A DNA stretch of 40,132 nucleotides, taken from IMG/VR virus record IMGVR_UViG_3300036781_000274, positions 1-40,132 of that record; one strand, given 5' to 3'. The translations under genes were made by a program, and so were the position numbers. Shown in pieces: positions 2,720-40,015 of this stretch. The first letter of the stretch is position 1; each line of letters begins with the position of its first letter. Under the pieces are notes generated by a model. The model was not told where the DNA came from, ran no database searches, and worked only from the letters and a program-made list of their open reading frames with translations. This stretch comes from a virus.

Positions 2720-2755
2720 CTCTAACCGCATGGGCACCGCCCAGCACCGAAAGGA
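2720..2755 (+). promoter_or_regulatory. stem-loop/RBS leader element, copy 3
   Basis: CTCTAACCGCA is followed by TGGGC-ACC-GCCCA, GCACCG and AAAGGA, ending 9 bases before the diguanylate cyclase ATG at 2765. The CTCTAACCGCATGGGC portion is also found before the fourth leader at 3390, so conservation reaches upstream of the hairpin. Confidence 0.75.
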
Positions 2756-2764
2756 TCACCCGAA

Positions 2765-3394
2765 ATGATGAATCTACCCTCTGACCTGTTCGCCGCCCAC
2801 AACATCATTCGCCAGCTCGAAGCCAAGAATGAACAACTTGAAGTCCTCGCACGCATCGACCCTGTAACCCGCATCTGTAACCGCCGCGCCTTCGATGAGC
2901 AGTTGCTTTCTGCCTTCTCCCATTCACGACGCACGGCCACGTCTTTGTCGGTGGCCGTGCTCGACCTGGACAACTTCAAGCGCCGTAACGATACCCTCGG
3001 GCACATTGCCGGCGATCATTGTCTCGGTGCCTTCGCCGCCCAGCTCGTCGAACACTCCCGCGCTGGTGACACCGTGGCGCGGATCGGCGGCGAAGAGTTC
3101 GCCATTCTCATGCCGGATACCTGCGAAGAGGACGCCGCGCAGCTCTGCCGCCGCGTCGCGGAGAGGGTGCGGTATGGCTGCTGTGCTGGCGAACCGCTGA
3201 CGTTCTCTGGTGGCGTGGCCTCGGTCGATAGCACCATGATGCACCCGTCCACGATGGTCGATTATGCCGATCGTGCTATGTACCTGGCTAAGCAGTCCGG
3301 CAAGGATAAAGTTTGCATCCACACTCCCACCTTTCACCGCGCCGTGGCCGATTCTGGCCTCTTCCAGCGCATCACGCGGTATCTTTCCCTCTAA
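2765..3394 (+). CDS. GGDEF diguanylate cyclase
   Basis: A 209-aa protein of a short N-terminal helix (9-29) and one GGDEF domain (about 30-185) that makes cyclic di-GMP from two GTP. Catalytic features look intact: DPVTRICNRRAF (32-43), metal-binding DLDNFKRRND (67-76), GDHCLGAFA (83-91) and the active-site loop GGEEF (108-112). RAGD (99-102) lies five residues before GGEEF and matches the RxxD inhibitory site for product feedback. There is no membrane segment or sensor domain, so activity is probably set by expression or by dimerisation through the N-terminal helix. It is preceded by hairpin leader copy 3. Such enzymes are known on some integrative elements but are rare on phages. Confidence 0.92.
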   Translation: MMNLPSDLFAAHNIIRQLEAKNEQLEVLARIDPVTRICNRRAFDEQLLSAFSHSRRTATSLSVAVLDLDNFKRRNDTLGHIAGDHCLGAFAAQLVEHSRAGDTVARIGGEEFAILMPDTCEEDAAQLCRRVAERVRYGCCAGEPLTFSGGVASVDSTMMHPSTMVDYADRAMYLAKQSGKDKVCIHTPTFHRAVADSGLFQRITRYLSL

Positions 3395-3434: not shown

Positions 3435-3767
3435 ATGGCTAAATTCAAGATCAAAGTCCGTGTGGTCGCCGCGTGTGAGTACGAGGTTGAAATCGATCAC
3501 GATACCGAGGCGAAGGCCGAGGATGAAGCAACCCGCATATGGCGCGACAAAATACCCAGCGATTTTCAGGTCGAAAAAGGCTACATCACCGATTGGGAAG
3601 TAGAGACTGAGCAACAGACGGCCATCTGTCCCGATTGCGGCATCGAGCACACCATTCCCACCGCCGACCGCAACCAGGCCGGTGCCGATAGCTGGCATGA
3701 AGACTATGAATATTGCAAGCCTTGCGGTGCGAAGATGGAAGCGGAGGATAAAGCCAATGGCCGATGA
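3435..3767 (+). CDS. small zinc-ribbon protein
   Basis: A 110-aa protein of unknown role. The N-terminal half (3-70) is probably a beta-rich domain with a charged helix (KAEDEATRIW). The C-terminal half has CPDCGIEH and CKPCG, a two-knuckle zinc ribbon. It lies behind hairpin leader copy 4, starts a three-gene overlapping set (3435-4276), and could bind nucleic acid or a protein partner. Confidence 0.65.
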   Translation: MAKFKIKVRVVAACEYEVEIDHDTEAKAEDEATRIWRDKIPSDFQVEKGYITDWEVETEQQTAICPDCGIEHTIPTADRNQAGADSWHEDYEYCKPCGAKMEAEDKANGR

Positions 3768-4342: not shown

Positions 4343-4374
4343 GCCCCTAGCGTCCGCGCTGGGGGCTTTCTGTT
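4343..4374 (+). terminator. intrinsic terminator of the rightward operon
   Basis: GCCCCTAGCG-TCCG-CGCTGGGGGC forms a 10-bp stem with one G-T pair and a 4-base loop (4343-4366), followed by TTTCTGTT. It ends the operon 238-4276. The hairpin also encodes the last two codons and TAG stop (4347-4349) of the facing leftward gene. Confidence 0.75.
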
Positions 4375-7242: not shown

Positions 7243-7481
7243 CGTTTCACCATCGCGTCGTCTTCGGTGGGATTGCCGTGCAGTGTCCAGCCTCCACTTT
7301 CCAGGTTGACGTACCATACTCGCCCTTGTCGGTCGACCCCGTAGACCGTCCTGCCGGTGTAGCACAGCGACGCTATGGGTACGCGTCCGCCTCGGGGTTT
7401 AACAAGTCGGAATACGACGATTCTGTAGATGAGTGCGCCGGCCAAACCGCCCAGCACACCGTAAAGGATGGGTTCTATCAC
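7239..7481 (-). CDS. small single-pass membrane protein
   Basis: An 80-aa protein with a glycine-rich transmembrane helix (about 4-26), a basic stop-transfer segment (RLVKPRGGR) and a C-terminal domain with GRTVYGVDRQGRVWYVN, which looks like a small beta unit. It could be an anchor or a regulator. It lacks the usual length and double helix of holins, so I do not call it one. It overlaps the ATPase stop (ATGA). Confidence 0.6.
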   Translation of the reverse strand: MIEPILYGVLGGLAGALIYRIVVFRLVKPRGGRVPIASLCYTGRTVYGVDRQGRVWYVNLESGGWTLHGNPTEDDAMVKR

Positions 7482-8872
7482 TTCTCAACCTCCACGTCGT
7501 CGCCGGTGGCCTCGCCGTCTTCCATAATGACGCTCACCTTCCCGCCTGTCTCTACGCGCTCGATCCACACCTGAAAGTCCTGCTCTTTGGCCGCGTCGCC
7601 GATGAGCTGCAGGCTGTCCTCGTCAAGCAAGCTGCCGTCGCTGATGCGCAGCACGCGTAGCTTCGGGTTAGCGGCCATCCCCAGCGCCATACTGACGCGG
7701 ATCTGCTCGGCGTTCGATGCCTGGCTAAGCGGCAAACCGTTGTAGACCACTTCGCCGTTGCCGATGGAAAGCTTCTCGATAGGCATCTTCGCCCGCGCGA
7801 TCGCCTTCTCGCGCTCGATGTCGCGCTCCTTCATCCGCTTGTCGATCGCCTTCCAGTTCTCGTCTTCGGCGTCGAGATCCTTCTCAAGCTGGCGATAGTT
7901 CGCCGCCCGCTGGATGGCCGTGTTGGTTTCGTTGGCGCGGGTCAGCTCTGCTGCAACCTCGGCGGTGTCGATCTCCTTGCCGATTTTGACTTTGGAAGCC
8001 AGCGCCAGGGCCTCGGCACCGCCGCGCACGCACTCCTCGGCCTCCTTGTCCAGCAGGTCGGCCTGCCGGCGCAGCTCGGCGGCCTGGGTGCGCCGCTGGG
8101 TGGCTTGGGAGGCATGGGTCGCCGCATCCTCTTCCAACCGCGTCTTGCGCGCCTTCTCTGCCGCAATCTCGGTGTTGTGCGTGGCCGCGTTTTGCAGCTT
8201 CAACGTGATCGCGGCGGTGTCGATCGGCTTCTCCGGCAGCGCCGCGTCCGGCACGGCCATCGCAGCAATCCGGCTCTTCAACGAATCCACCACGCGCCCA
8301 GCCTCGCGCCGTGCGTCGTAATCGACCTTCTGCGTGGCGTCGAGCGCATCGATGTCAATATCGAAGTGGACCAGGCCGCGCAGCTCCTCCAGCTGGTCAT
8401 CGTCCTTCATCCGCATGAACTCCATCGGATCAAAGCTAATCTTGCCCAGCAGCTTGTCGAGCAACACCTGGGGGCTGGGGAAGGCCTCGCCGCGCTTGCC
8501 GGTGACAACCAGCTTGCTCATGTAGGTGTGGCCCTTCTCGCTCTTCTCCTCGTCAACGTGGGTGAAGAAGCGCGTCACCACAAAGTCGCCGATATCGATC
8601 TTGACGCTTCCGGTGCGCTGGCCCTTGCGGATGGGATAGCGCGGCACCGTCGAGGTTCCCGTCAGTCCCCAGCTAATCGCATCCAGAACGGAGCTTTTGC
8701 CCTGGCCGTTTTTGCCGGCCACAACAACCACGTTTCCTTTTGGCTTGAGATGCGCGACGCGCACCCGCTTAATGTTCTCGATGCGCATCTCGATGATGTG
8801 CATATCATTGCTGCTGGCTTCAACAATCGCGTCAACCTGCGCGTGCCGTTCTTCCTTCGGTATCCGTGCCAT
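7478..8872 (-). CDS. Rad50/RecF-like coiled-coil ATPase
   Basis: A 464-aa ABC-type ATPase of the SMC/Rad50 group (AAA_23-like). Walker A GKNGQGKSS lies at 53-61 in the typical setting IENIKRVRVAHL...VVVVAGKNGQGKSSVLDAI. A coiled-coil middle spans about 200-370. The C-terminal lobe has the signature-like LPLSQASNAEQIRVSMALG and a short Walker B/D-loop (LRVLRISDGSLLDEDS). It is much shorter than SbcC, as in phage ATP-binding proteins linked to recombination. No SbcD-like nuclease or RecT is seen nearby; the HNH gene at 5008 is the only nuclease of the module. GAGAGGG precedes the ATG at 3 bases. Confidence 0.85.
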   Translation of the reverse strand: MARIPKEERHAQVDAIVEASSNDMHIIEMRIENIKRVRVAHLKPKGNVVVVAGKNGQGKSSVLDAISWGLTGTSTVPRYPIRKGQRTGSVKIDIGDFVVTRFFTHVDEEKSEKGHTYMSKLVVTGKRGEAFPSPQVLLDKLLGKISFDPMEFMRMKDDDQLEELRGLVHFDIDIDALDATQKVDYDARREAGRVVDSLKSRIAAMAVPDAALPEKPIDTAAITLKLQNAATHNTEIAAEKARKTRLEEDAATHASQATQRRTQAAELRRQADLLDKEAEECVRGGAEALALASKVKIGKEIDTAEVAAELTRANETNTAIQRAANYRQLEKDLDAEDENWKAIDKRMKERDIEREKAIARAKMPIEKLSIGNGEVVYNGLPLSQASNAEQIRVSMALGMAANPKLRVLRISDGSLLDEDSLQLIGDAAKEQDFQVWIERVETGGKVSVIMEDGEATGDDVEVEK

Positions 8873-27405: not shown

Positions 27406-28668
27406 TTATGTCGTCATCGGAACGGCGATCGCGATCCGCATACGGCTGGTGACGTCGGGCGGTGGCCCGATGCCCAGCACGCAGTTGTATCCGGTTCCCG
27501 CCTGGATGAGCTGGTTGGCGTCATAGGCGGTCCGGGCTGTGAACTTCTCAGCCCACAGGTCCAGATTCTGCCATTTGTGGCCGGGTTTGGTCAGTTTTCC
27601 GTGCGGAAACTGAATGAAGACCATGCCGTCCATGCCCGCGAGATAGGTGCTGATCCCGGTCTCGCCGGAACTCTGCCAGTTCGCCGTCTGGGTCTGGTTG
27701 GTGCTCTTTCTCCAGTGGCAGCCGAACAACTCCAGCGTGCGCACCGGAGCCTCGCCGTCGTCGCCATCCAGCGGCTCCAGCTTCAACTGTCCCGCGTCGG
27801 TGTGTTTCCAGATATCGACGATGGAGTTATTGGAATCGTCGAGCATCAGGTCCGAGACAAAGAACGGATGAATGCTTCCGTTGTAGAAGCCGTCCTTCAT
27901 CTGCGGCACCTCGGCACCTTCGAGCGAACCCGGCATCTGCTCGATGATGTTCTTGGTGAACGCATAGGGGCTGCTGGTGGCGTCCTGGTTGGCCGTCCGC
28001 GTGTCCATCGTGCGCAGATAGTCCATCTGGTACATGATCAGGTCGTCGATCGTCAGCGCGAGCTGGTAGGCCATGATGCGCCTGTTCTCTACCAGGTCAT
28101 CCGAGATCGAGGTCAAGGCGGCGAAGTCGGAGATGGTATTGAAATTCGCCCATTGCCCGACGACGATATCCTTGAAATTGACGTTGATCTGCTCTGGCGG
28201 CCCAGGCGTACCCTCGGTCTGCTGCGTGATGTCCGGTCCCAGCGGGATCGACATGAAGTTTCGCCAGGTCTGCCCGCTCTTCTCGGGTAGATCCATATGC
28301 GTACACATCAGCAGCTTGTTGGTCTTGGCATACAACCATTGCATGAAGACGCGGTTGTAATAGACCGTCAGACGCGCCTGCGGCATGTTCGCAGAGGTCT
28401 GAGCGGCTGCCGTTGCTCCACCCTCCCCTACTACCGCTGAATGCGCTGACTGCGCGCCCATTGCCATCGCCGTGGCTCCGGTCGCCATCAGCGCCGCCGC
28501 ACAAGCGATCAGCAGCTGCAGCAAAGGCCACAGGATGTACTTAAACAAAAATGCAGCGATCCCGTCCTGAGTCCCGGTTCGCATCCCGATTGGGCGGAAC
28601 TGCCTGCTGGTTCCGCTCACCCATTGCTTCTTTCGCTTCCACATCCGATACGTCATGGTCTGACGCAT
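27406..28668 (-). CDS. major capsid protein, N4-gp56 family
   Basis: A 420-aa protein. Residues 95-410 fit the N4-gp56-type major capsid: RLTVYYNRVFMQWLYAKTNK, then the loading segment with FKDIVVGQWANFNTISDFA, and a C-terminal domain with VFIQFPHGK. Before it lie 65 unusual residues: basic start (MWKRKKQW), then a hydrophobic helix (37-60, FLFKYILWPLLQLLIACAAALMA). GGGAG seven bases before the ATG at 28668 supports the long form. An internal ATG (M68) preceded by GGAG and 8 bases could start a shorter, more ordinary capsid of 353 residues. The long form may be membrane-linked or carry a cleaved leader. Confidence 0.8.
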   Translation of the reverse strand: MRQTMTYRMWKRKKQWVSGTSRQFRPIGMRTGTQDGIAAFLFKYILWPLLQLLIACAAALMATGATAMAMGAQSAHSAVVGEGGATAAAQTSANMPQARLTVYYNRVFMQWLYAKTNKLLMCTHMDLPEKSGQTWRNFMSIPLGPDITQQTEGTPGPPEQINVNFKDIVVGQWANFNTISDFAALTSISDDLVENRRIMAYQLALTIDDLIMYQMDYLRTMDTRTANQDATSSPYAFTKNIIEQMPGSLEGAEVPQMKDGFYNGSIHPFFVSDLMLDDSNNSIVDIWKHTDAGQLKLEPLDGDDGEAPVRTLELFGCHWRKSTNQTQTANWQSSGETGISTYLAGMDGMVFIQFPHGKLTKPGHKWQNLDLWAEKFTARTAYDANQLIQAGTGYNCVLGIGPPPDVTSRMRIAIAVPMTT

Positions 28669-29507: not shown

Positions 29508-29905
29508 TGTTCGTTCTCCAACTCTGCCAGTTCCCCGTTTACAGCCAATTCCAGTTCCTCAATGACACGACGAAATATTTTCACATACGCCCAGGCAATG
29601 GCGACTTCATCCCGGTTGGTAAGTGGATCGTCCTGACTAAGAGAAATAGCACGTTTCTGGTGAAAATGAATAGACTTTTCAGCGATGCGGAGATACAACT
29701 TCTGTCCCGGCATCTCCCAGAACTCCTTCAGATCCAGCCGTTCCGGCCGGCTCAGTTCGCGTTCGGGATCGTCGTACGCTCTCCGCTCCGCCGGCGCAGG
29801 CCTCGGCGTCATCTCCGGGTCTCGTCCGTTGCGTAGCGCGGCCAGCTCCGGGGTCAATGGCTCCCCGCGTAAAAACTTCTCGTGTGCGGTTAGGTTAGAC
29901 GCCAT
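29504..29905 (-). CDS. hypothetical protein between portal and scaffold
   Basis: A 133-aa protein. N-terminal part proline/arginine-rich (EMTPRPAPAERRAYDDPERELSRPERLD), C-terminal part helical (QKLYLRIAEKSIHFHQKR, then FRRVIEELELAVNGELAELENEQ). It overlaps the portal by 11 bp. No known domain; a head-assembly role is likely from its place. Confidence 0.55.
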   Translation of the reverse strand: MASNLTAHEKFLRGEPLTPELAALRNGRDPEMTPRPAPAERRAYDDPERELSRPERLDLKEFWEMPGQKLYLRIAEKSIHFHQKRAISLSQDDPLTNRDEVAIAWAYVKIFRRVIEELELAVNGELAELENEQ

Positions 29906-32108
29906 TCTGCAGCTCCCCCATGTCCGTGTTGCGCTCTAAACGGCCTTCGGCTTCCTCGAACTCCTGCGAACCCTCCAGCCGTTCTGCAACTTTGTCTGCG
30001 GCTGCCTTCACCACGGCGACTTGAGTATCGACCTTCCCTTTGGCATCGATGGCCTGCAGCTTGTTTTGTCCGCGTACTTGCTCGATCGCCGCTGCGCTCT
30101 GCGTTCTCTGAGCGGCCGGGTTCAATGCCTTCACCTGTTCCATCTCTTCCGGCGTGAGGTCCACGATGATGTCCTCCGCGCCCTGCAGCTCGCTCACGCG
30201 CATAAAGATCTTCTCGATCGCGGCAAAGTTGATCGTCTTCCCTTTCTGGTGCATAAATTCCATCAGTTGCGGCTGCTGCATCAGCTGCAGCATGAAGGGA
30301 ATCAGTTGCTGGATGGAGGCCTTCGCGGCCAGCTTCTGTCCCGCCAGGATCTTGATGTTGAACTCCGCGCAAACCAGCTTCTCCGGATCGATCTTATCGA
30401 TGATCGTGTCGGCGTATTTCTTGCTGAGAATTCTGCGGATCTCGGCGATCGGCATCTTGGTTTGCACAATCCACCACAGAAAGCGGTACCAGCGCACCAA
30501 CACGCCCTCGATATGAGAGATAGGCGTCGCCACGTTGTCGTCGGCCTTGTTTCCCAGCCGATTGACGCCGGTGGCCGTCTTCAGGGCGGTGGATCCGGGT
30601 CCGGTGTTGCCCTGCATGGTGGTCGCGTTCGCGCCTACCAGGTCCTCGCCGCCTTCCTTGCCCAGCTCGTAAATCTTCCACGCCTCGGGGGGTATCTCGG
30701 GCTTCGGGACATAGGCGAGAGCTTTTCTGATGTCGCCGCCGCCGGGCACGTTGACTCCCCATAGAGTGCCTAGCCCCATCACCACGTTCTGCGTCGGCTC
30801 GTTGCCGCTTGAGCTGTCATACATCAGCGGAGCGTTCGTCCAGTAGCCGATCATCTTCAGTACTTCGTTCAGCACGCCCTGGTCCATGCGCTGATCGCCC
30901 GCGTTCAACCGACCGATGCCCATGCCGTAGCCGCTGTTGTCGATGTTCCACCAATTCGCGGTGACACCAAGCGCGAAGTCCTGCAGGTCATGCGGCCCAT
31001 TCCGTATCGTCTTGCGCCGGCCCTGATAGCACAGCACTTCGATGATGTTCTCTTTGGTCGAATACTTGAGACGCATCAATGGCCGCAGGGTCGGATCCAC
31101 ATTAGTCTGCTCGTGCTCGCCCTGGGCATGGAAGACGACGGCCGAGTTGGAGTTCATGCTGTCGGAAGTTGTTGAGGCCGGCGCGGCATCGCCCAAGGGA
31201 TTCTCAAAAAAGAATTTCTTCAGGTCCTCGTCGTCGGGAATGTCCTTGTAGCAGTCCATTTCGCGGAGCTGCTGCAGGTCCTGCAGGTTCGGGTAATCGA
31301 CATCGATCTTTCCGTGCGCGCTCATCTCCGGTCGGTTCGGTGTGCGCCACGCCGGATCGTAGAGCGTCGTTCCTAGTTTTCGGTATTCAAAGTAAGGCCA
31401 GGTCTCCGTCACCCTGCTGGTCACAGGTTCAAACTCATCGCTCTCCCAGGTATTGACGATCCTCGGCGGTCCTACCGGCATCTGGATCTGTTCGGGCTGC
31501 TTTTTGCGTTTGCGCGTCGTATACACGCATTCCTTCTCTTCATACCCCATGTCGCCGATCCCGGTTCCCTGAAGTACCAGGCAGTCGATCAGCAGTCCCA
31601 TGTTGTATTCGAGGTCCGCGCGTTCGCTCAGCGTGTTGAAGATCTCGGTGATGGCATCGACATAAATCTCCTGGTCGTCGTCGTCGGCCAGCGGTCCACG
31701 CGGTTCCAGTAGAAACGGAGTCGGATCGGCAAAGACGCCTCGTTTGATCTGTGTCGCCATCGTGTTCGAGTTCTTGGCCACATTGAACCGCGAAATGCGC
31801 GCCGTTCCGCCGTTACTTCCGCGCCAATTGCTGTCGAAGTTAGGGCTTTGCTTGAGGTAATCGATGTACTGCCATTCAGCGAGCCACGCATTCTCGTCCA
31901 GCCATCCAACCCACGCCTGGTAGTTCTCCCACACGATCGTCGCCGCCGCGTCGTCGTCGTATGCGGTCTCTGTCGCGCCGTCTTCCCCCAGCTCGGCCTG
32001 CGACTGCGCTATGCGCGGGGTCATCTCATTGCCTAGCGGCATTCCATCGCCGCCAGCTCTCGCCGCTACGTCGTCACTCTCGCGCGGGATATCCAGTTCT
32101 TCAGCCAT
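29895..32108 (-). CDS. portal (head-tail connector) protein
   Basis: A 737-aa protein, large for a podovirus portal (T7 gp8 is about 536 aa) and close to N4-type portals. It sits next to the terminase and overlaps it by 8 bp. Features: an acidic N-terminus, then WENYQAWVGWLDENAWLAEWQYIDYL; a central domain with FNTLSERADLEYNMGLLIDCLVLQGTGIGDMGYE; and a long helical C-terminus (FMLQLMQQPQLMEFMHQ; ALNPAAQRTQSAAAIEQVRGQ) as in portal barrels. Confidence 0.75.
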   Translation of the reverse strand: MAEELDIPRESDDVAARAGGDGMPLGNEMTPRIAQSQAELGEDGATETAYDDDAAATIVWENYQAWVGWLDENAWLAEWQYIDYLKQSPNFDSNWRGSNGGTARISRFNVAKNSNTMATQIKRGVFADPTPFLLEPRGPLADDDDQEIYVDAITEIFNTLSERADLEYNMGLLIDCLVLQGTGIGDMGYEEKECVYTTRKRKKQPEQIQMPVGPPRIVNTWESDEFEPVTSRVTETWPYFEYRKLGTTLYDPAWRTPNRPEMSAHGKIDVDYPNLQDLQQLREMDCYKDIPDDEDLKKFFFENPLGDAAPASTTSDSMNSNSAVVFHAQGEHEQTNVDPTLRPLMRLKYSTKENIIEVLCYQGRRKTIRNGPHDLQDFALGVTANWWNIDNSGYGMGIGRLNAGDQRMDQGVLNEVLKMIGYWTNAPLMYDSSSGNEPTQNVVMGLGTLWGVNVPGGGDIRKALAYVPKPEIPPEAWKIYELGKEGGEDLVGANATTMQGNTGPGSTALKTATGVNRLGNKADDNVATPISHIEGVLVRWYRFLWWIVQTKMPIAEIRRILSKKYADTIIDKIDPEKLVCAEFNIKILAGQKLAAKASIQQLIPFMLQLMQQPQLMEFMHQKGKTINFAAIEKIFMRVSELQGAEDIIVDLTPEEMEQVKALNPAAQRTQSAAAIEQVRGQNKLQAIDAKGKVDTQVAVVKAAADKVAERLEGSQEFEEAEGRLERNTDMGELQNGV

Positions 32109-33795
32109 CCAACCCTCCCGGCATCGGCGGTAGTCTATACGTCGTCGCTTCCTGCATCGCCTGCTGGTGTGCCATCGCCTTTTTCTTTACCTGGTCATCC
32201 ACGATTGGCGTACCCTGAAGATTCAGGAGCCAGTTCAACGTAGCATCGTCCTTACGGCTCCGCTGGTATTCTGCTTCATCATCTTCCAGTGCGGCGCGCA
32301 TCTGTGACATTGGCACCAGGTTCCCAAGCTTCGACACGCACTCGATGATGCCGTTCTCTTCGATCAGGCCAAAGTAGACAAACTGCTTCTTACATTCGCT
32401 GCCTTTGGTCATGCCCCGCGCGAAGATAATCCGTCCTACTTTGAGCAACGGTTCCATCTGTTTAATCGAGCTGTTGCGCAGGTTTTCATTGTCTTCAAAG
32501 TCGCTCCACTGAATACGCAGGCTGACATTCTTTCTTGCGGCCTCATTCCGAATATGCGGTGTAAAAGCATCGCATCCGGGTGTATTCAGAATCATCATTC
32601 CATCGGCCTGCAGCTCGCGGTGAATCTTGACCATCCTCTCGGCCTGATGGCTGGGCGTGCCGCCGATCTGCCAGCAGTCGATCACGTACACCTTGCCGTC
32701 GATGATCCGCGCCGCCGCACCTTCCATCAGTTTGCTCGTCGCCGGCTTGCTGCCATACTGCAGACGCCAGCACACAAACGTCTCGCCACCATAGGGCGGG
32801 ATGCGCTCGATGTCAGCCTCGCACGTTCCATACAGTTTCTCGTCGAAGATCGGCGTATGGCCACCCTGGGGGTCATTCTGCTGCTGACACATGAAAGTTT
32901 CGTAGTTCTCATAAAACATTCCACGCAACCGCTTGTACGTCATGCCTGGCAAATCGGAGAATGGCAAGATCACTTCATCTTCTGGAGGGAACTCCCCGAG
33001 CAAAAGCCGCGATCCGTCCTTGCGCTCGATCGAGTGGCGAATCAAAACATCCCACTCGTCGGGGTCCATATCCGCGAGTCTGACACCGTAGAGATCGAAA
33101 GGGTGGTAGCGTGTGCCGACGAGATATAGGTAACCGCCTGGGACGAGGGTGTTTTTGTTGGTGTCGAAGGTCTCGATGACACCCTGCCGCGCGTCCTGCG
33201 TCGCGCGGATACCGCTGTTCTTCGTGGCCACCATGTCATCGCAGTTAAGCAGCCACGGATGCCAACCGGATTGTTCCGTCTGCGGCGATGTATATGCGAT
33301 CGTATCGTCTAGCGCGTTTGTATCGTGAGTGGGAACATTCCACGAATCGGCAAAGTTGAGTGGTTCTTTATTCACCACCAACTCGGGGAAGCAAAGCTGG
33401 AAGCGCGTCGGCTTCTCATACTTGGGGCAGTAGAAGTAATTGCCAATGCCTTTGGATATCTTCTTCGCGAGCGGTTGTGTGGCCGTCTGATTCAGCAGGG
33501 TGATGAACTTCGGGAACCCCGCAATCCACTGCACCTTATCCACGCGGTTCCATGTGGTCTTGTAGGTGAAGCGTGGATCGAAGTGCATGAGCTTCTTTTT
33601 CTGGCGCTGCTCCTCGATCGACAGCAAAGGATTTTTCCTGCCATAGAGATCGGCGACTGGCTTATGCAGGATCGGATGGAACTCCCATCCCAACATACGA
33701 CCTGCGAAGAATGGATCGGTAATGAAGCGATGCCGCAAATCTTCGCGATAGGCGGCATCCTGGACAATGCGTTCGTTGTCGTCTGGTTCAATCAT
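32101..33795 (-). CDS. terL: terminase large subunit
   Basis: A 564-aa DNA-packaging motor. The ATPase domain has a Walker A-like PRFTYKTT (74-81), in which the usual glycines are replaced, and a Walker B LLNCDDMV (182-189). The C-terminal nuclease-like half has conserved acidic segments (KVYVIDCWQIGG). The length is typical. No clear small terminase subunit is next to it; the 105-aa gene at 33803 is the only candidate. Confidence 0.88.
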   Translation of the reverse strand: MIEPDDNERIVQDAAYREDLRHRFITDPFFAGRMLGWEFHPILHKPVADLYGRKNPLLSIEEQRQKKKLMHFDPRFTYKTTWNRVDKVQWIAGFPKFITLLNQTATQPLAKKISKGIGNYFYCPKYEKPTRFQLCFPELVVNKEPLNFADSWNVPTHDTNALDDTIAYTSPQTEQSGWHPWLLNCDDMVATKNSGIRATQDARQGVIETFDTNKNTLVPGGYLYLVGTRYHPFDLYGVRLADMDPDEWDVLIRHSIERKDGSRLLLGEFPPEDEVILPFSDLPGMTYKRLRGMFYENYETFMCQQQNDPQGGHTPIFDEKLYGTCEADIERIPPYGGETFVCWRLQYGSKPATSKLMEGAAARIIDGKVYVIDCWQIGGTPSHQAERMVKIHRELQADGMMILNTPGCDAFTPHIRNEAARKNVSLRIQWSDFEDNENLRNSSIKQMEPLLKVGRIIFARGMTKGSECKKQFVYFGLIEENGIIECVSKLGNLVPMSQMRAALEDDEAEYQRSRKDDATLNWLLNLQGTPIVDDQVKKKAMAHQQAMQEATTYRLPPMPGGLDG

Positions 33796-34262: not shown

Positions 34263-34892
34263 CTAGCCGACGCTGAACTTCTGAATGTTCACTGTCGTCA
34301 GTGCCCCACCAGTGGCTCCGCTGGATGCGAAGGTGAGGGTAAAGCCTGGGAGATTCGCTACGGTCGGAGGGTTCGCGGACGGATTGCCCTGGTTGAGAAA
34401 TCCGCTGGGGAAGTTGGAGAGGGTTACCGCTGCCACAATGATTTTGTTGACGTAGAAGTCGATTTTACCGACCAGTAGTCCGCTCACTGAATCGAAGATG
34501 AGTTGCGCATGTGCAAACCATGCCGCGATCGCGGTGTTCTGCGTGATCGCGCCGCTGCTGCCCAGCAATGTATTGCTGGCGATGGTATCGCTGACCCCCT
34601 CGTACACGTCGATGGTCACAGTTCCGCTAGCCCTGGTCTGTATGTAGCCGGAAGCATAGAGGTCAAACACGGTCTGTTCAAGCTGCGTGTCGGGCGGGAT
34701 CTGGATCGCGAGGGGAACAGCAGCATTTGGCGCGCTGGGTGCAATCGTCTGGGTGGCTGCTGCCAGCGTGAACTGAACCGGCAATATGCCGGCCAGCGTC
34801 TGGGTCTGCGTCGCCTGCTGGTTGAGGGGGATTTGGTTCGCTACGCTGGCCGCTCCTGAATTAGGGCCATAGGGACGATCTGACAGAGCCAT
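34263..34892 (-). CDS. beta-rich structural protein
   Basis: A 209-aa protein, T/A/G/V-rich. Segments such as LYASGYIQTRASGTVTIDVYEG and GFTLTFASSGATGG form regular strands, like a decoration or fibre protein. CCAGGAGAGTAAGT precedes the ATG. Similar in style to the gene at 25928 but without obvious sequence identity. Function in the virion is inferred from the location. Confidence 0.6.
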   Translation of the reverse strand: MALSDRPYGPNSGAASVANQIPLNQQATQTQTLAGILPVQFTLAAATQTIAPSAPNAAVPLAIQIPPDTQLEQTVFDLYASGYIQTRASGTVTIDVYEGVSDTIASNTLLGSSGAITQNTAIAAWFAHAQLIFDSVSGLLVGKIDFYVNKIIVAAVTLSNFPSGFLNQGNPSANPPTVANLPGFTLTFASSGATGGALTTVNIQKFSVG

Positions 34893-37188: not shown

Positions 37189-37274
37189 CTCCGGTGTAGA
37201 GATTACAGTAAGCTATACGGTAGAACCTCTGTATGCACTACCGTAATCCCTACGGTGTGGCATATCGTAATCTC
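37184..37274. repeat. cluster of GTAATCTC-type and TACGGTAG inverted repeats before parA
   Basis: GTAATCTC at 37184 and inverted GAGATTAC at 37199; GTAATCCC at 37243; GTAATCTC again at 37267-37274, directly against the ATG. In addition TACGGTAG (37216) and CTACCGTA (37238) form an inverted pair. Such clusters before parA usually act as centromere and/or autoregulation sites bound by the small partner protein. parA itself has no strong ribosome site. Confidence 0.6.
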
Positions 37275-38015
37275 ATGCCAATCATTGTTGCCATTGCGAA
37301 CCAAAAAGGCGGCTGCGGAAAGACCACCACCACCATGAACCTCGCCGGCGGCCTCTCCCGCGCCAAGTATTCCGTACTGGTCGTCGATGCCGATCCGCAA
37401 GCCAGTTCGACCGTTTGGAGCCTGGCACAAGGGCAGGGAAGGCTGCCGTTTGATGTCAGGCCGGCTCGCCAACTCAAATGGCGCTTCTCGGCCCTCCAGG
37501 AGGCCGAGGAGGAGATTGTTCTGGTCGACTGTCCTCCTGGCATCACCGACCCGAACGACGAGGCCGCCAGGTTCACCAGGGCGGTACTCCGTGGGGTCGA
37601 CGCAATCCTGGTGCCGCTCCGTCACACGACGCTCGATTTCTCAGCGGCGGCCAGCTTCGTGCTCTACCTGATGCGCGAGAAGATGCCAGAAACTAAGGTC
37701 GCCGTTCTCATCAACGCCCGCAAGAATACCCTCCTCGGTCGTCAGTCGCTGGACAAGGCTGCGGTCCTGTTCTCGCCGATCGAGGGTACTGTCGTCCTCA
37801 ACACCACCATCGGCGATCGCGCTCCGATTGCGGAAGTGTCCGGGTCCGGTGAAACCATCTTTGACTATGCTCCCAGCCATACAGCGGCGAAAGAGTACGT
37901 CGAACTAACTAAGGAGATCCTGTCATGGCTCAGAAACGTGCCCCCCTCGCCGCATACGCTCTCGAAAGCCTCCACGCTGACATTGCCCCCATCCGAGATC
38001 ACCGAACGCCTGTAG
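37275..38015 (+). CDS. parA: ParA partition ATPase
   Basis: A 246-aa ParA/MinD-family ATPase. Deviant Walker A KGGCGKTT (11-18), LVVDADPQ, and IVLVDCPPG follow in order. It moves plasmid copies apart by ATP-driven DNA binding. ATG 37275 is preferred, since the N-terminus then begins directly with the strand before Walker A; 37233 is possible. The last 30 residues (VPPSPHTLSKASTL...) are encoded by DNA that also encodes the partner protein (91-bp overlap), and are probably a disordered tail. Confidence 0.88.
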   Translation: MPIIVAIANQKGGCGKTTTTMNLAGGLSRAKYSVLVVDADPQASSTVWSLAQGQGRLPFDVRPARQLKWRFSALQEAEEEIVLVDCPPGITDPNDEAARFTRAVLRGVDAILVPLRHTTLDFSAAASFVLYLMREKMPETKVAVLINARKNTLLGRQSLDKAAVLFSPIEGTVVLNTTIGDRAPIAEVSGSGETIFDYAPSHTAAKEYVELTKEILSWLRNVPPSPHTLSKASTLTLPPSEITERL

Positions 38016-38476: not shown

Positions 38477-39490
38477 CTAGCCGAGGTCCACCTTTACGCG
38501 CGGCGCGATCGCTGGCCGGCTGACGCGGATCTCCAGACCGCCGCCCTGGGGAGGGTAACCAAACTTGAGTCCTGGGTGGGCTAACTTCACCTTGCGCATT
38601 GCGCCCTTGATTTTTTTCTTGAGGTTGCCCTGGTCTGCGTATTCGCAGCCGAGCTGTTGGCCCAGCAGTCTCCATGTGATGAAGTGCTTGGTTTTCCCTC
38701 TCTGCTTGAGGTTTGCGCCGATGTAGTTGCAAAAAAGATATAAATCCAGCGCCAGCGGCGACTTTCGCAATATGCCGATTGCACGCATATCAAACGGAAT
38801 CGCGCTCTCCATAATCGCGGCGAAGAAGGTAGGGCTAAGGTCGATGTAACTGGCGAACAGTGCGCGTTTTCCAGGCGTCCACCATCCGATCTGGCTTTCC
38901 TCAACGATCGGTTGCTGGCGCGTGAATTCCATCTCGGCGTGTTGCAGCTTTTCTCCGTCCCAGGCGGTGTCGCGGTATCGGGTCCGATAGCTGATGTGCG
39001 ACATGATGAGACGAGCGAATTGGTCTTTTACTCGCGCCGTGTCGCTTCGTTTTCCGCCCTTCGTTGTGTCCAGCCCCAACTCATGCGAGAAGTCAGCTAG
39101 GCGGCCTCCGAGATGAAGCCGCCGCACCCCTGTACGCTTAGCCTCGGTGACTATCCAGATGAGAATCAGGCGCGGCAAAATGCCATAGGGATACCCCACT
39201 GAACAGTCGTTTTTTTCATCCCATCCGGGTTGAATGACGAGTGTGTAATCACCGTTCTTACGCTTCCATACCGGCACTTTACCCGGATCTTTATGGGGCA
39301 ACGTGCATTGCACCAAAAAGCGCGCAAGGAAGGCGGTTTTTCCCAGCGGATCGCCCTTGATTTCTTCCGATCCCTGGATAAGTTTTAGGTCCGCTTTGGT
39401 TGGTTCTGGGGTGGCTGCGGCGGTCCCGATTTGCTCTTTCAGGCCCGTTACATCTGCGATCTCAGCGATGGAATTGGGAAGGTCGTTCAT
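38477..39490 (-). CDS. repA: RepA-family replication initiator
   Basis: A 337-aa plasmid initiator of the RepA group (PF04796-like). The signature segment YGILPRLILIWIVTEAKRTGVRRLHLGG, then FSHELGLDTTKGGKRSDTARVKDQFARLIMSHISY (about 104-170) is clear. The C-terminal part is a winged-helix-like region with WRLLGQQLGCEYADQGNLKKKIKGAMRKV. It binds the iterons at 39622-39839 and opens the origin with DnaA. AAGGA is only four bases before the ATG, and the start lies in the inverted repeat 39488-39501, pointing to autoregulation. Confidence 0.88.
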   Translation of the reverse strand: MNDLPNSIAEIADVTGLKEQIGTAAATPEPTKADLKLIQGSEEIKGDPLGKTAFLARFLVQCTLPHKDPGKVPVWKRKNGDYTLVIQPGWDEKNDCSVGYPYGILPRLILIWIVTEAKRTGVRRLHLGGRLADFSHELGLDTTKGGKRSDTARVKDQFARLIMSHISYRTRYRDTAWDGEKLQHAEMEFTRQQPIVEESQIGWWTPGKRALFASYIDLSPTFFAAIMESAIPFDMRAIGILRKSPLALDLYLFCNYIGANLKQRGKTKHFITWRLLGQQLGCEYADQGNLKKKIKGAMRKVKLAHPGLKFGYPPQGGGLEIRVSRPAIAPRVKVDLG

Positions 39491-39569: not shown

Positions 39570-39672
39570 AAAAGCGAATTAATTTTATCCACACCGCGCT
39601 GTGGGTCTAAAAAGTTTTCCACGCTGAAACGGTACCCCCCCCCTTCGGCGCAGAGAAAGCGAATTAATTTTA
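39570..39672 (+). repeat. AAAGCGAATTAATTTTA repeats of the origin
   Basis: AAAGCGAATTAATTTTA occurs twice (about 39571 and 39657), and the shorter ATTCGCTTTTT at 39749 is an inverted partial copy. They alternate with the iterons and could be a second protein site or part of the unwinding element. Confidence 0.55.
39585..39593 (+). promoter_or_regulatory. DnaA box, consensus
   Basis: Perfect TTATCCACA. Its CCACA also forms a small inverted repeat with TGTGG at 39600. Confidence 0.8.
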
Positions 39673-39839
39673 CCGCTGAAACGGTACCCCCCCTTTCAAA
39701 AATGTTCTTTATTGGTAGGCATTTTTACATCATTTCACCATTTCAATGATTCGCTTTTTCATCACCACTTTCTTACAAAATTGGTTTTTAAGTGACCGCT
39801 GAAACGGTACCCCCTTTTACCGCTGAAACGGTACCCCCC
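39622..39839 (+). repeat. origin of replication with four RepA iterons
   Basis: Four direct copies of CGCTGAAACGGTACCCCC at about 39622, 39674, 39797 and 39821. The longer C tracts vary from 5 to 9. The stretch 39698-39795 between copies 2 and 3 is AT-rich and is the probable unwinding region. Together with the DnaA boxes and the adjacent repA this is a typical theta plasmid origin. No gene is supported in 39491-40132. Confidence 0.85.
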
Positions 39840-40000: not shown

Positions 40001-40015
40001 TGGAACATGGTTCCA
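40001..40015. promoter_or_regulatory. 15-bp palindromic operator candidate, copy 2
   Basis: Identical to the palindrome at 132-146 (TGGAAC-ATG-GTTCCA). A TATATT lies at 40021-40026 and a TTGGAA overlaps the left half, giving a possible rightward promoter with a short 15-base spacer. Confidence 0.6.

Follow-up and report, generated by a model that had tools for sequence, protein, structure and literature searches.

A standalone GGDEF diguanylate cyclase gene predicted in the early gene block of a phage-plasmid

It is known that phages sense signals of their hosts, and a phage-plasmid that made a global host signal would write to that network. An open reading frame (ORF) near one end of a viral contig raises the question of whether such an element carries its own cyclase for c-di-GMP and, if so, what the enzyme would do. 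The window analyzed here is the whole 40,132-bp record, a single virus contig. The original prediction, made from the letters alone, described an intact-looking diguanylate cyclase (DGC) on a phage-plasmid.

The carrier is a probable phage-plasmid

The gene content of the window argues for the predicted phage-plasmid identity. Structural and packaging genes lie on the minus strand and encode a major capsid protein (27406 to 28668), a portal or head-tail connector-like protein (29895 to 32108), and the terminase large subunit, TerL (32101 to 33795). Replication and partition functions comprise a plasmid RepA with a RepA_C domain (38477 to 39490, − strand), a ParA partition ATPase (37233 to 38015, + strand), and, immediately upstream of repA, a set of four iteron-like repeats of 25 nt each (39616 to 39839), which form a putative plasmid origin. 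A RusA match was also present. An SMC/AAA_23-like ATPase gene (7478 to 8872, − strand) gave a full-length match to phrog_1499 and had homologues in every related contig examined.

The best plasmid match of RepA was on a Granulicella tundricola plasmid (39.7% identity), and a second one ranked third; in pACIX902, repA likewise adjoins a ParA gene, in the opposite orientation. An Acidobacteriota host is a reasonable guess from RepA similarity, with Terriglobales as a first candidate group. A terminase scan of species genomes returned one weak match only, and comparisons of ParA and ArdC indicated no phylum.

The predicted protein is a single GGDEF domain with a short helix

The ORF at 2765 to 3394 (+ strand) yields a stop-free translation of 209 amino acids, which matched Pfam PF00990 (127 bits, cut-off 23.8 bits; E = 7.7e-37) and NCBIfam TIGR00254 (136 bits). 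An AlphaFold model built from a four-sequence alignment (mean pLDDT, 81.7) placed a helix at residues 8 to 28, the GGDEF domain at residues 30 to 181, and a low-confidence tail from residue 190. In Foldseek searches, the best PDB match of the model was WspR (3bre; E = 2.7e-18), and DgcB, a coiled-coil-plus-GGDEF protein (6ttr), matched with a TM score of about 0.8; together with a match to PleD, these results identify a GGDEF fold. No sensor or transmembrane stretch was found in the 209-residue protein, in agreement with the claim that these parts are absent, and a short N-terminal helix stands in place of a sensor. This helix (2786 to 2848, + strand; pLDDT of about 90) resembles that of 6ttr and is a predicted dimerizing stalk, so dimerization through residues 8 to 28 may be expected from the model. 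The fold, the GGEEF/GGDEF site, the RxxD motif, and the helical stalk are common to the window protein, the GGDEF domains of WspR, PleD, and DgcR (3bre, 2wb4, and 6zxm), and DgcB (6ttr). In contrast to these proteins, to which it is 27 to 37% identical, the window protein has no receiver or input domain and is borne by a phage-plasmid.

Motif residues point to a canonical diguanylate cyclase

Both motifs named in the original prediction were recovered in the translation and the alignment: the GGEEF active site at residues 108 to 112 (3086 to 3100, + strand) and, as RAGD at residues 99 to 102 (3059 to 3070, + strand), the RxxD product-inhibition site (I-site). RAGD ends exactly five residues upstream of GGEEF, a spacing that is common, though not universal, among diguanylate cyclases. 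Metal- and guanine-binding residues lie in DLDNFK (67 to 72) and NDTLGHIAGD (75 to 84), encoded at 2963 to 3016 (+ strand), as assigned by alignment and by a published specificity rule (PMC6456294). GGEEF, the metal-binding Asp67 and Asp69, the guanine-binding Asn75 and Asp84, and the I-site are invariant in four full-length homologues, so chance is not an issue for these motifs.

The DxLTGL motif is changed, reading DPVTRI in the window protein and DPITNI in the related contigs G001 and G002; DPLTGI in G003 is the sole canonical-like version. This departure would suit a catalytically dead or weak GGDEF protein that acts through its I-site as a c-di-GMP receptor or scaffold, and phage DGC-like proteins can indeed be degenerate, as illustrated by SGDEF in YuA and AGDEF in CN2. 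However, dead GGDEF receptors normally lose their metal-binding, base-binding, and GGEEF residues, all of which are intact and invariant here, and we consider this reading improbable.

A different product was also weighed. RepA points to an Acidobacteriota-related host, and Hypr-type enzymes, which produce 3′,3′-cGAMP, have been described in Acidobacteriota. The base-reading position decides this case: Hypr enzymes carry Ser or Thr there (PMC6456294), whereas the window protein has Asp84. Asp at this position together with GGEEF occurs in the window protein and three full-length relatives. When tested, a Ser/GGEEF mutant showed no activity, and the natural enzymes with Ser or Thr use only GGDE; a tested enzyme that combined Asp with GGEEF worked exclusively as a diguanylate cyclase (PMC6456294). 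Therefore, c-di-GMP is the expected product. Asp84 with GGEEF marks the protein, as judged from its residues, as a canonical diguanylate cyclase, and a Hypr identity was rejected as very improbable.

Independent contigs carry the gene at the same place

Four other contigs, one of them truncated, carry a homologous gene that is 64 to 74% identical. The copies in the three IMG/VR contigs were 74, 73, and 66% identical to the window gene; the fourth contig, G004, starts inside the gene. G001 to G004 all have it in the early block that also contains it in the window, and in every carrying contig, it is followed by homologues of the window's genes at 3435 and 3938. Pairwise NG86 estimates (dN, 0.01 to 0.32; dS, 0.14 to 0.98; dN/dS, about 0.1 to 0.4) indicate that the gene is kept for its protein by purifying selection. 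Together, the motifs, the structure model, this selection, and the independent contigs back the description of an intact-looking diguanylate cyclase.

The original prediction had also worried about a chimera in this part of the contig. The gene does lie close to one end of the contig, and many of the GGDEF matches in phage records resemble bacterial contamination. Nonetheless, four other contigs carry the homologue in the same position beside the same phage genes, and the window copy bears a lineage-specific leader (see below). An assembly chimera or bacterial contamination was rejected on the independent contigs, and its probability is negligible.

Between G003 and the window, the cyclase is 66% and the clamp loader 78% identical, whereas the terminase and capsid share only about 30% identity; hence, the early and structural modules have separate histories. 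Separately, two contigs from one metagenome (3300036790), L003 and L004, have widely different structural genes and similar early modules, a sign of module exchange.

The gene shares a leader with other early genes

Upstream of the GGDEF gene, at 2732 to 2755 (+ strand), is a leader composed of a hairpin, GGGC-N3-GCCC, and the Shine-Dalgarno sequence AGCACCGAAAGGA, 9 nt before the ATG. The same leader precedes two other + strand genes: at 206 to 229, the first gene of the block, which encodes a clamp-loader (RFC-like) AAA ATPase (238 to 897), and at 1143 to 1166, ardC, which encodes an ArdC-type anti-restriction protein with ArdcN and MPTase-PolyVal domains (1175 to 2059). A terminator-like hairpin at 4343 to 4366 (+ strand) closes the block. 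The window contains exactly three copies of the pattern GGGC-N3-GCCCAGCACCGAAAGGA, all positioned 8 to 9 nt ahead of a start codon, and shuffled windows contained none. Among 2.9 million viral contigs, the pattern was present in 8 records, 7 of which are known members of the lineage; the eighth, L126, shares the clamp loader and other genes. Leader repeats before early genes were also seen in G001 to G003, G005 to G007, G009, G024, and L126.

Stem variants (GGGT-ACCC, GGGGC-GCCCC, and GGGGA-TCCCC) still pair, which amounts to a few compensatory changes. The folding energies of single leaders were not significant (z, −1.1 to 0.3); the case for the hairpin therefore draws on the conserved sequence and on these changes. 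An Rfam search with the leader gave no match, and we set aside its identity with a known Rfam element. No convincing promoter was recognized. The repeats suggest a shared translational leader of early genes, and they may also provide homology for cassette exchange. Because the leader is common to the clamp-loader and ArdC genes, the GGDEF gene looks coregulated with early genes.

The gene is optional among relatives

A full GGDEF domain was present in 3 of 26 related records and a truncated copy in 1 of the 26; a further 19 related records, many of them fragments, had none. G005 and G009 lack the gene, yet their terminases are 90% identical to that of the window. At the GGDEF site, both have, behind the same leader, a conserved ORF of 78 to 80 amino acids with no assigned function (G005, 2714 to 2950; G009, 960 to 1202, with both contigs reversed and G009 numbered without its first 183 bases). 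The ORF is not recognizably GGDEF, and the idea that it is a decayed copy was tested and found no support. G009 retains a short piece, RIGGEAFAIILPNTSE, which matches the window at 40 of 48 bases and gave a best blastp E value of 2e-6 in a search of very small size; we read this piece as the likely scar of a lost GGDEF copy. The gene was thus probably lost in at least one relative. Since it is missing in most relatives and was probably lost, the phage cycle does not need it. The window and G001 to G004, with the gene, and G005 and G009, which lack it despite their 90% identical terminases, form a natural presence/absence set for comparison.

Comparison with known phage-borne and mobile cyclases

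The gene had been described as a kind rare on phages. This is fair. GGDEF matches at E = 1e-3 occurred in 162 of 50,697 phage records, several of which appear to be bacterial contamination, and other viral GGDEF ORFs in IMG/VR are mostly longer, multidomain-sized proteins. The statement has to make room for precedents, however, namely, YuA gp44 and Bordetella phage CN2 gp39 (SGDEF/AGDEF without RxxD) and the intact proteins of Bacillus phages SP-15 and G.

Like the window protein, Yuavirus gp44 and the Vojvodinavirus proteins (YuA, CN2, and LK3) are phage-encoded, standalone, and GGDEF-like. Unlike it, they are 152 to 156 amino acids long, with SGDEF or AGDEF and no RxxD, and they align with it over part of the domain only; none of these Yuavirus-type features is seen in the window protein, a compact sensor-free cyclase with more complete motifs. 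Their phages are not phage-plasmids as far as annotated. In YuA, the gene after gp44 is a putative anti-restriction gene. LK3 lysogens overproduce biofilm, and the tie to the DGC-like gene of LK3 is correlative (PMC8471281). SP15_150 of SP-15 and gp350 of phage G share an intact GG(E/D)EF and RxxD with the window protein, to which they are about 30% identical, but they have N-terminal hydrophobic membrane-like segments and belong to very large phages.

Other mobile elements carry cyclases as cargo: DgcK and DgcL of SXT/R391 ICEs and the DGCs of the VPII island change biofilm and motility on expression (PMC10672970, PMC2791158). These reside on conjugative or integrative Vibrio elements and are likened to the window gene by description, not sequence. 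In the three papers found to mention both phage-plasmids and diguanylate cyclases, no title or abstract described a phage-plasmid with its own cyclase. Phage-borne DGCs are already known, and the window gene is unusually intact and sensor free; its product is ordinary in enzymology and uncommon in its carrier.

Proposed role of the cyclase

The best explanation, to which we assign a probability of about 0.7, is that the gene encodes a functional canonical cyclase that is expressed with early genes and raises host c-di-GMP. The protein would dimerize through its N-terminal helix, be constitutive in needing no input signal, and convert two GTP molecules into c-di-GMP, limiting itself through product binding at RxxD. 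Expression together with the early genes for the clamp loader and ArdC, via the shared leader, would raise c-di-GMP after entry, during plasmid-prophage carriage, or both. Profile and Rfam searches of these phages found no EAL, PilZ, or c-di-GMP riboswitch, and a phage-borne circuit with its own receptor was rejected on this ground. Given that neither an EAL nor a PilZ partner turned up, the output would run through the host's own c-di-GMP receptors. The simplest effect would be less motility or pilus function and more attachment, a shift that would be to the advantage of the cell carrying the phage-plasmid and might limit superinfection. The original prediction had suggested biofilm growth, changed receptor exposure, and an altered lysogeny choice as possible consequences. 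Counted against this explanation are the altered DxLTGL motif, the absence of the gene from most relatives, and the lack of a recognized promoter. In E. coli, infection by phage N4 depends on c-di-GMP (PMC8669472).

An active cyclase could instead serve mainly to bias the phage-plasmid's choice between lysis and lysogeny or its establishment as a plasmid, with raised c-di-GMP sensed by a phage or host regulator. The plasmid-like phage VP882 offers a precedent that c-di-GMP can move such a lysogeny decision: on surfaces, high c-di-GMP lowered lysogenic conversion, which fell from 75% to 22% with a DGC and rose from 21% to 75% with a phosphodiesterase (PMC11315295). The position of the GGDEF gene in an early block with replication genes also fits. 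However, the VP882 work manipulated host-encoded enzymes; the phages studied here show neither a PilZ receptor nor a c-di-GMP riboswitch, and close relatives manage without the gene. We regard this alternative as possible but unlikely.

Speculatively, this lineage of phage-plasmids may use its own early-switched cyclase to set host c-di-GMP, tipping its own lysogeny/lysis decision or the lifestyle of the carrier cell, and gain and loss of the gene might mark alternative strategies of sister phages; we hold this proposal as doubtful.

Contig ends

The near-complete relatives of the window (G001, G002, G005, G006, G007, and G009) were all classed as linear. Their contigs, like the window, stop at a common point, give or take a few hundred bases, between repA and the clamp-loader gene, which suggests real linear ends. 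A search for the protelomerase family PF16684 found no match, and a protelomerase was set aside as the cause of the common ends. The 15-mer TGGAACATGGTTCCA occurs at 132 to 146 and 40001 to 40015, 131 bases in from either terminus of the record. A further contig, G044 (IMGVR_UViG_3300010376_000035; L173), is a symmetric 69-kb sequence. A base-by-base check of its central 9 kb showed a perfect inverted palindrome whose center, at 34488/34489, lies upstream of the clamp-loader gene; either a hairpin telomere or a fold-back in assembly would produce such symmetry.
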